A stretch of 64,000 nt of DNA from Lentisphaerota bacterium. GTDB taxonomy: Bacteria > Verrucomicrobiota > Lentisphaeria > Victivallales > Victivallaceae. The first letter of the stretch is position 1, and every line of letters starts with the position of its first letter. The DNA lies in contig SUWH01000001.1 of NCBI GenBank assembly GCA_015061605.1, positions 62,001-126,000 on the forward strand, given 5' to 3'. Made by a program: the position numbers and the translations under genes. The notes beneath the pieces were generated by a model that saw only the letters and a program-made list of their open reading frames with translations, was not told where the DNA came from and did no database searches. Below are positions 15,891-18,361 of this stretch, piece by piece.

Positions 15891-15935
15891 ATTTCCATCA
15901 AGAATATATAATAACCAAAACGGTTGTCAACGATT

Positions 15936-17156
15936 ATGTTCAATAACCAAAATATTGTATGTGCAGTGGAGTTCGGCTCTTCCAAGATCTGTGTGCTGAT
16001 CGGTCAGCTCGAAGGCGATGGCAAAGTCAAACTTCTGGGGTACGAAGCTGTTCCCTCTGCCAATGCGGTCGTCAAGGGCGAAATATCTGATATGAAGCGT
16101 GTGGTCGATGCGTTGCGCAAAGCCTTTGACAGCGCTGAAAGAAAGAGTAACTGCGATCTTTCCCATTGCCGGGTGATAACCGTGGTCGTCACGGGAGGCG
16201 GCATCGACTCCACCCAGGAGACTGCCGGTATCACGGTCAATACTCCAAATGGTATCGTTACCGAAAATGAAAAACGTGCCGTTACCGAAGGCGCCCGAAA
16301 TCTGGCACTGACCAACGGTAAAGAGATCATCAATCTCTGTCCGTCATGTTTCACCATCGATAAGCGGCGGGTCAGTGAGCCCTGCGGACAATCCGGCAAA
16401 TATCTGGAAGCTGATGTCCATGTGGTCAGTGCCAACTGCCGCCGTTTGAACCCGTTTATTCAGGCGTTGCGCGAAACCGGATTTGAAGATGTCGATATCG
16501 AACCGGTTTTTGCTCCGCTTGCCGATGTCAACGGCGCCGTCGATGATGAGACTCACGAACCGGGATTTATTCTTTTGGACATCGGTGCCGGAACTACGGA
16601 ATATCTGCTCAATATCGATGAGGGCATCCGGGCATCCGGTGTGGTCAGGGTCGGTATGGAGCATGCTGCCAATGATCTGGCGATAGGATTGTCTCTGCCG
16701 ATCGATCAGTGCCGCCGTTTCTTTACTTCCGGCACGCTTGCAGAAGCCATCCGCAATAAGCAGGAATTTATTGAAGTTCCGGTGCGTCCGCGGCATATCC
16801 GGAAAATTCCGGTAAGCAGTTGCGAATCCATTGTCGATGCGCGGTTGCACGAGTTGATGAATATCGTTTACAGTAAAGTTTCTGCCAATTTTAATTTGAA
16901 TACCCTCGGAGCAGGCGGGCTGTTGACCGGAGGAGGTGCACTTTATGCGCCGGTAAAAGATATTTTTTCTTCAGTATTCGATATATCCTGCCGTACGGTC
17001 GTCCCCCGCAATACTCATTGCGGTGCATTGGAGAATCCCCGGTTCAGTTCGGTGTGGGGTGCGTTGACTCTGGCTCCGGACTTTGTTGATTATCCGGTGC
17101 AGGACAGCAAGCTGCAGCAGTTCCTCAAATTTTTCAACCGGGATCGCAGGGGGTGA
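15936..17156 (+). CDS. ftsA: Cell division protein FtsA
   Basis: FtsA is the actin-like ATPase that tethers FtsZ to the inner membrane. Visible features are the phosphate-1 loop CAVEFGSSKICVLIG (usually D-I-G-T-S, here E-F-G-S-S), phosphate-2 ILLDIGAGTTEYLL, and the adenosine motif LTGGGALYAPV. The C-terminus QQFLKFFNRDRRG looks like the amphipathic membrane-targeting helix. I start at ATG 15936 (406 residues) rather than the TTG at 15924; no clear ribosome-binding site serves either. The gene is followed after five bases by an ftsZ-like gene but lies beside cysK, not in a dcw cluster. Confidence 0.9.
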   Translation: MFNNQNIVCAVEFGSSKICVLIGQLEGDGKVKLLGYEAVPSANAVVKGEISDMKRVVDALRKAFDSAERKSNCDLSHCRVITVVVTGGGIDSTQETAGITVNTPNGIVTENEKRAVTEGARNLALTNGKEIINLCPSCFTIDKRRVSEPCGQSGKYLEADVHVVSANCRRLNPFIQALRETGFEDVDIEPVFAPLADVNGAVDDETHEPGFILLDIGAGTTEYLLNIDEGIRASGVVRVGMEHAANDLAIGLSLPIDQCRRFFTSGTLAEAIRNKQEFIEVPVRPRHIRKIPVSSCESIVDARLHELMNIVYSKVSANFNLNTLGAGGLLTGGGALYAPVKDIFSSVFDISCRTVVPRNTHCGALENPRFSSVWGALTLAPDFVDYPVQDSKLQQFLKFFNRDRRG

Positions 17157-17161
17157 ATGTT

Positions 17162-18361
17162 ATGAGTGAACGTAAAATGACCATTTTGGGTATCGGCGGT
17201 GCCGGTTGCCGGATCATCCGGCAGATCTCTCTTGCCCCGGGTGCGGATAAACTCCGGCTGCTCGCACTGGATTCCGATACCGCAAGTTTGGAAGAGTCCG
17301 GACTGCCGCCGGAAAACCGGATCATCGCCGGTATGAATCTGCGTTCCGGTCGCGGCTGCGGCGGCAATGAAATCATCGGCAGAAGCGCTGTCGCTGTGGA
17401 AAGACCCCGGCTGGGACGGATATTGGAAGGTACGGATATATTGCTTATCATCGGTGGTCTGGGCGGCGGATTGTGTACCGGAGGTCTTCCGGTCATTCTC
17501 GGAATTGCCCGTCATATGCATATAACGACGATGCTGATGCTTTCTCTGCCTTTTGCCATGGAAGGCTATGGGCGGCGCAAGCAGGCGGATGACCGTATAT
17601 GTTCAGATCTTCTGCCGCTGGCAGATTGTCTTATCGCTTTGCCCAATGATCTGCTTTTTTCCACACTGCCGCCGGAAACTCCGCTTGCACAGGCATTGGA
17701 ACTGGCGGATGTGGAAATGGCGCGGACGGCAATGGCTCTTTCCTCGATCCTTTTTGCCGGAAATATTTTCAGTGCTGATATATCCAATTTTTCAGCGATG
17801 CTCAAACCCAATGCACTCTGTTCGCTTGGAGTCGGAGTTGTTCCGGCAGGAGAAGAAAATGCCGTGGAAAAAGCTGTGGAAAAGATGATGCTGTCTCCTC
17901 TTCTGGGCGGTCCGGCTGAATTGCAGCGTTCTGATGCAGTGATATTCACTGTTATCGGCGGGCCGCAACTTTCGCTCGGTGAAGCCAAAAAAGCTTTGGA
18001 TCTTGCCAATAAACAACTGGATAAATCTCCCGGCAGAACCGTGCTGCTGGGCGCCGGAACTGCTCCGGAATGGCAGGATTTTATCCAGATAACCGCCCTT
18101 ACGGTGCGTTACACTGATAAGTCGGTGGTAAAAACTGCTGCACCGGCTGCCGCAGTAAAAAGCGGTGCAGCAAGCCGTCCGGCAGCGATCCAGCGTAAAG
18201 TCGCGGTGGCTTCAGATGCATCGTTTGTCCAGCAGACATTGGAACTTGATACCATCGACAAGGGCATTATGGAAAATACCACGCCGGACTTTTTCAATGG
18301 CGAAGATCTGGATATCCCGACCTTCAAACGGCGCGGGATCATCGTCGACCCCGGCAAATAA
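17162..18361 (+). CDS. ftsZ: Divergent FtsZ (tubulin-like division protein)
   Basis: The FtsZ assignment rests on the N-terminal ILGIGGAGCRIIRQI, the overall length (about 399 residues), the position directly after ftsA, and a C-terminal DLDIPTFKRRG that matches the conserved FtsA/ZipA-binding tail peptide. The GTP-binding T4 loop, normally GGGTGTG, reads GGGLCTG (residues 101-107). The T7 catalytic loop, normally N-x-D-F-A-D, reads S-A-D-I-S-N (residues 204-209), so the equivalents of E. coli Asn207 and Asp212 are Ser and Asn. GTP hydrolysis may therefore be weak or absent. I use ATG 17162 with AGGGGG eight bases upstream; GTG 17153 is an alternative. Confidence 0.85.
   Translation: MSERKMTILGIGGAGCRIIRQISLAPGADKLRLLALDSDTASLEESGLPPENRIIAGMNLRSGRGCGGNEIIGRSAVAVERPRLGRILEGTDILLIIGGLGGGLCTGGLPVILGIARHMHITTMLMLSLPFAMEGYGRRKQADDRICSDLLPLADCLIALPNDLLFSTLPPETPLAQALELADVEMARTAMALSSILFAGNIFSADISNFSAMLKPNALCSLGVGVVPAGEENAVEKAVEKMMLSPLLGGPAELQRSDAVIFTVIGGPQLSLGEAKKALDLANKQLDKSPGRTVLLGAGTAPEWQDFIQITALTVRYTDKSVVKTAAPAAAVKSGAASRPAAIQRKVAVASDASFVQQTLELDTIDKGIMENTTPDFFNGEDLDIPTFKRRGIIVDPGK

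Follow-up and report, generated by a model that had tools for sequence, protein, structure and literature searches.

The window analysed here, a stretch of 64,000 nucleotides from contig SUWH01000001.1 of a Lentisphaerota bacterium, carries an ftsA gene followed, five bases after its stop codon, by the start codon (ATG) of an ftsZ gene, whose product is referred to below as P0001 (Table 1). The ftsA product passes the NCBI FtsA model TIGR01174 with 199.3 bits (cut-off 175.85), and P0001 ends in a conserved peptide that we take, from established knowledge of FtsZ, to be the FtsA-binding tail.

Table 1. Features of the ftsA-ftsZ locus in window coordinates, with residue numbers of P0001 and their E. 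coli FtsZ equivalents.
Feature	Position	Strand	Basis
ftsA, membrane anchor partner, directly upstream of ftsZ	15924..17156	+	TIGR01174; SHS2_FTSA and FtsA Pfam domains; ORF
ftsZ (P0001, 399 aa), ATG to end of stop codon	17162..18361	+	PF00091; PF12327; AlphaFold2; Foldseek
T1 loop GIGGAGCR; R17 at the N24 place	17189..17212	+	E. coli alignment
T2 loop LDSDT; D37 at the N43 place, D39 = D45	17267..17281	+	Alignment
T4 loop GGLGGGLCTGG, residues 98-108; L104 and C105 replace T108 and G109	17453..17485	+	Alignment
EGYGRR; E134 (E138) and R138 (R142) kept	17561..17578	+	Alignment
T7 loop GNIFSADISNFS, residues 200-211; S204 (N207), D206 (D209, kept), N209 (D212)	17759..17794	+	Alignment
Linker, residues 324-362, predicted disordered, mostly pLDDT <50	18131..18247	+	AlphaFold2
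C-terminal FtsA-binding peptide DLDIPTFKRR, residues 382-391	18305..18334	+	Sequence

P0001 is an FtsZ by orthology, fold and context. Both domains of the family score above their cut-offs, the tubulin/FtsZ GTPase domain (PF00091) with 68.1 bits against 33 and the FtsZ C-terminal domain (PF12327) with 32.9 bits against 27, and the neighbouring ftsA gene and the tail supply the genomic context. The AlphaFold2 model, computed from 56 sequences with a structure alignment that took in 55 of the 80 loci from the scan of named genomes, has a mean pLDDT of 87.5, lower in the linker and in the T7 stretch (76 for residues 201-210). All 50 Foldseek matches listed against the PDB are FtsZ, the best listed being 2vap (E 2.9e-30). 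In the scan of named genomes the nearest records are the Lentisphaeria gut MAGs RGIG4094 and SIG81, and Victivallis vadensis DSM 14823 belongs to the same family. P0001 reaches 141.4 bits with the NCBIfam equivalog TIGR00065, below its cut-off of 295.2, an annotation threshold passed by only 34 of the 387 phylum genomes. The canonical T7 loop follows the pattern NxDxxD; P0001 reads SADISN, with the middle Asp alone kept. Likewise, the tubulin signature, given as [SAG]GGTG[SAT]G in the excerpted text of PMC1845146, is replaced by GGGLCTG. Because these two motif tests fail, P0001 is not classed as a canonical FtsZ.

Alignment with E. coli FtsZ (26.9% identity) allows the extent of these departures to be stated residue by residue. 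The preliminary description had pointed to GGGLCTG in place of GGGTGTG, to Ser and Asn at the T7 places of N207 and D212, to an intact DIPTFKRR tail and to the position of the gene behind ftsA, all of which we recover. It had not recorded that residues D206 (D209), E134 (E138), R138 (R142) and D39 (D45) are kept, nor that three further positions are changed (N24 to R17, N43 to D37 and Q47 to A41). P0001 thus has in common with the canonical FtsZs of E. coli and S. aureus the two-domain tubulin/FtsZ fold, the preceding ftsA, the tail, the pocket glycines and the equivalents of D45, E138, R142 and D209, but differs from them in GGGTGTG and at N24, N43, Q47, N207 and D212.

The roles of these positions are best documented in S. 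aureus FtsZ, whose numbering is that of E. coli plus one and whose NxDxxD residues are N208, D210 and D213. In the portion of PMC8936486 available, the catalytic water is placed by a swing of D210 (E. coli D209), with D213 and G72 holding the site and R143 in a role resembling that of an arginine finger, and N44 and D46 bind Mg2+ waters; the changes D46A, R143Q, N208L, D210N and D213N stop assembly, and Q48A and R143K leave assembly with less GTPase activity. For E. coli FtsZ, the accessible part of PMC4383033 describes D212A as slow and reports that D212G supports division without hydrolysing GTP. The low-GTPase laboratory mutants D212A, D212G and FtsZ84 resemble P0001 in being altered at the D212 aspartate or in the T4 loop, but each has one change in an otherwise canonical protein, whereas P0001 occurs naturally, as the only FtsZ found in its genome, and has several. 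FtsZ84 divides at the permissive temperature. Its hydrolysis rate is put at 0.47 against 7 GTP per FtsZ per minute in the part of PMC4603965 at hand.

Among the papers listed for FtsZ in Lentisphaerae/Lentisphaerota, none was evidently concerned with these motif changes; Pilhofer 2008, which reportedly covers the division genes of Lentisphaerae, may say more. FtsZ or dcw genes are recorded as present in Lentisphaerae/Lentisphaerota in what is available of PMC5147048 and PMC12283558, and the FtsZ of V. spinosum is already termed divergent in the available text of PMC1845146 and PMC12283558.

The distribution of the changes was analysed across the class Lentisphaeria. Of 173 class proteins extracted, 142 were kept and 31 set aside (26 from family f21, three from genus g56 in genomes G087-G089, and the two fragments L129 and L131); 24 of the 197 class genomes have no row, having no match, an unlisted place, a sequence that was not obtained or a gene split between contigs (e.g. 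G006, G016, G055). The comparison was with a canonical set of 35 proteins, made up of E. coli FtsZ, four loci from other phyla and 30 of the 34 genomes in the phylum that exceed the TIGR00065 cut-off. In the class, position 43 is Asp in 140 of 142 proteins and Asn in none, and position 24 is Arg or Lys in 124 of the 141 proteins with a residue there; each of these two changes occurs in 0/35 of the canonical set, which places the changes seen in P0001 beyond chance. Other positions are worn to different degrees, with Gly at 109 in 32/142 (Ala in 93), Thr at 108 in 97/142, Asn at 207 in 19/142, Asp at 209 in 119/142, Asp at 212 in 58/142 and Gln at 47 in 4/142. Much of the GTP pocket is strongly constrained: among the 142 proteins, G105, P134 and E138 are kept in 142, G107 in 141, D45 in 140, D166 in 135, N165 in 133 and G111 in 132, with Arg or Lys at 142 in 130. 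On the tree, N43 to Asp needs a single change, and the fewest changes required on the same tree are 11 for N207, 15 each for D209, T108 and G109, and 16 for D212.

The canonical set has Asn in all 35 proteins at position 43 and in 31 at position 207, but Asp in only seven at position 212. Loss of D212 as a special feature of P0001 was thus rejected, the residue being replaced in 28 of the 35 canonical-set proteins, most of them Verrucomicrobiota above the NCBI cut-off, and in 30 of 43 named loci outside the class (Asp in 13, Thr in 25), a count from which five of 48 titled loci are omitted (four of other phyla, one titled 'uncultured') and in which two of the loci are titled 'Lentisphaerae'. 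On the sequences compared, loss of D212 is widespread in Verrucomicrobiota, and the combined change at N24 and N43 marks the class Lentisphaeria. The FtsZs of other Verrucomicrobiota, such as V. spinosum and Opitutia, are like P0001 in being divergent, often with D212 replaced, but unlike it they have an unaltered GGGTG[ST]G, retain both N24 and N43, and in most cases have Asn at 207. V. vadensis and the class share the family and set of changes of P0001; V. vadensis FtsZ reads GGGTASG and GNLLAADFNNF (N207 to Ala, D212 to Asn), and P0001 differs from it in also having Leu and Cys in T4. P0001 is, in short, a genuine FtsZ and the only one found, but its catalytic loop is worn, and it represents one stage of a drift that runs through the class. 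Many Verrucomicrobiota FtsZs (L152-L181, L214-L258) combine an intact GGGTG[ST]G with Thr, Ala or Ser at the D212 place, and replacement of the LINLDFATLRQ type is also seen in the cultured Opitutaceae bacterium EW11.

An acid is present at position 209 or 212 in 138 of the 142 class proteins and in all 70 family proteins; four class proteins have none at either place. Loss of one goes with presence of the other (Fisher p 2e-5 in the family and 2.4e-4 in the class), and a Pagel-type test that allows for descent gives p 0.0046 and 0.033, respectively. The simulated number of double losses is compatible with independence (0.42 in the family, 0.08 in the class), and independent pairs, which are too few, do not reject it either. 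These comparisons point only tentatively to continuing selection on some T7 chemistry, with a strict rule of one carboxylate no more than suggestive. Coupling of R142 or T108 with D212 was discarded as a candidate: among the results listed, Fisher p is small but the independent-pair median p is 0.375-1.

FtsZ is further reduced in class family f21 (29 genomes; loci L302-L327, genomes G104-G132), in which 26 genomes match the f21 FtsZ profile. Nine encode full-length FtsZs with T7 residues worn or missing, and 15 carry complete ftsZ genes that are stubs of 247-297 residues (G105-G107, G109, G112-G119, G130-G132); in the remaining two, a stub is cut by the contig end (G108) or the match covers the tail only (G124). 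In the stubs the FtsZ N-domain runs directly into the tail (GIF ... LD-x-P-T/S), with neither T7 loop nor C-terminal domain. FtsZ_C is found in five of the 29 genomes (G104, G125, G127, G128, G129) and in none of the stub genomes. Wherever both genes are placed in a stub genome, ftsA adjoins the stub. Closely related stubs have dN/dS of 0.04-0.22 in pairs with unsaturated dS, and every measurable pair indicates purifying selection. Because the T7 interface is missing, canonical protofilaments look impossible for these proteins.

Very weak FtsZ matches are also present in three near-complete genomes of family f13, genus g56 (L139, L141, L144 in G087-G089), where frames of 349-357 aa not located beside ftsA match with E of 1e-6 to 1e-7; this genus may have nearly lost FtsZ. 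In two other Verrucomicrobiota families, f30 and f35 (e.g. G372, G232, G237), whose genomes are mostly 87-99% complete, the best FtsZ match is very weak, with E of 1e-8 to 1e-27, and FtsZ may be wearing down in these families too.

Several explanations of P0001 may be considered, and two of them concern the standing of the gene itself. The preliminary description offered a second FtsZ as one option, here taken to mean a specialised copy in addition to a canonical FtsZ, and suggested searching the genome for another ftsZ. That search returned one PF00091 match in the window's assembly (G000), namely P0001 itself; no second PF00091 match was found in any genome of the window's family (f1), and a TubZ-like profile matched neither this assembly nor the family. 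With P0001 as query, an orthologue is found in 73 of 78 family genomes and in every one of the 36 that are of good quality; completeness is 76-87% in the five that lack a match, and the two matches each in G006 and G055 are pieces on two contigs. The assembly is 88.7% complete, so that a second ftsZ could lie in its missing part, and this incompleteness is all that speaks for the proposal, which was rejected as very improbable. Identity of P0001 as an FtsZ paralogue or TubZ-like protein was rejected as well, there being no second tubulin-superfamily gene found in G000. Decay into a pseudogene, to which the low score against the NCBI FtsZ model might point, is hardly credible in view of the open frame, the presence in 73/78 family genomes, the confident fold and the substitution rates. 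Between the window and G38, ftsZ has dN 0.16 and dS 1.14, and between the window and G38, G45 and G50 dN is 0.16-0.18 and dS 1.1-1.2; the less saturated pair G45-G50 gives dN 0.054 and dS 0.72, and the corresponding values for ftsA are 0.19-0.25 and 1.2-1.9. By these rates, P0001 is encoded by a working gene under purifying selection.

The remaining explanations differ in what becomes of GTP. We assign a probability of roughly 0.58 to the reading in which P0001 is a true GTP-binding division FtsZ, anchored by FtsA, that hydrolyses GTP slowly with one carboxylate. It would be inherited vertically and serve as the only division FtsZ of a Victivallaceae-like gut bacterium of the Lentisphaeria. 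GTP binding is probably retained, given that the glycines of the pocket, the T2 Asp (D45) and the residues equivalent to E138 and R142 are kept, and the subunits would assemble head to tail. Slow hydrolysis would then rely on D206 of T7 in place of the N-D-D triad, within a pocket rebuilt by the class (N43 to Asp, N24 to Arg or Lys, G109 to Ala or Cys), and FtsA would keep the filaments at the membrane, so that a low turnover rate could be tolerated. The preliminary description had considered that another residue might provide the catalytic carboxylate, which is half borne out, since the D209 equivalent is present and some relatives without D209 keep D212; of its readings, altered GTPase kinetics is the best supported, a second FtsZ falls away, and a scaffold retains some weight. 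Against slow hydrolysis, our analysis would count the changes at the N207, D212 and Q47 places, where S. aureus changes affect assembly or GTPase activity, and the carboxylate pattern, which is not secured against shared descent and has its four exceptions. The same changes lend some weight to a non-hydrolysing scaffold, in which there is no GTP cycle: P0001 would either assemble with GTP or GDP bound or do no more than coat FtsA filaments by means of its tail, and the dynamic work would fall to FtsA or wall-synthesis enzymes. Both T4 and T7 are altered, single S. aureus changes at these places stop assembly (PMC8936486, available portion), the E. coli mutant D212G reportedly still serves division although it does not hydrolyse GTP (PMC4383033, accessible part), and the f21 stubs without T7 keep the tail; however, the D209 equivalent is kept in P0001, at least one acid is present in 138/142 class proteins, and the GTP pocket is strongly constrained, so that we consider the scaffold unlikely. 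An ordinary GTPase whose altered residues compensate one another (e.g. R17 with D37) at a normal rate appears more improbable still: N24 to Arg or Lys and N43 to Asp do go together class-wide, and Thr or Met occupies position 212 in cultured Verrucomicrobiota, but the N207, D212 and Q47 equivalents are all changed in P0001, and each such change lowers assembly or GTPase activity in S. aureus, as far as the available portion of PMC8936486 reports.

Taken with the f21 stubs, slow or absent hydrolysis in P0001 would raise the tentative and somewhat doubtful idea that Lentisphaeria form a natural series along which first the GTPase cycle of FtsZ and later its protofilaments are lost, with the FtsA-binding tail kept throughout, P0001-like proteins standing at the start and the stubs at the end. 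Were this so, the f21 stub would act on FtsA as an adaptor consisting of a nucleotide domain, and division in those cells would be driven by something other than FtsZ filaments, such as FtsA filaments or wall synthesis. Mutants are the usual means of asking if division needs GTP hydrolysis and treadmilling by FtsZ. In the present case an entire class, to which the named species Victivallis vadensis belongs, has a worn FtsZ catalytic loop, in the sole FtsZ as far as the window's family is concerned, and one family has an FtsZ seemingly unable to form canonical protofilaments; the worn sole FtsZ and the stubs thereby open the need for the GTP cycle to direct biochemistry and comparative genetics, as a natural test of whether cell division requires it. 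They may, in addition, represent stages on the way from division based on FtsZ to the division without FtsZ of Planctomycetes and Chlamydiae in the same superphylum.

A well-conserved chromosomal TubZ/PhuZ-like protein of about 366 aa, with GGGTGNG and about 60% column identity, was observed in 58 of the 197 class genomes (loci L118-L121, L149, L150, L370-L394; families f2, f6, f11, f13-f24); a 59th match, in G175, overlaps the FtsZ of that genome. As a hydrolysing partner in the window genome it was rejected, having no match in G000 or the window's family. A search of phage and plasmid collections with one query sequence found no relatives, and strong matches outside the class occur only in G250 and G360. 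In the other families the gene is not beside ftsA and lies behind a small gene with weak winged-helix matches, which it adjoins in five of six neighbourhoods, like a TubR-TubZ pair.
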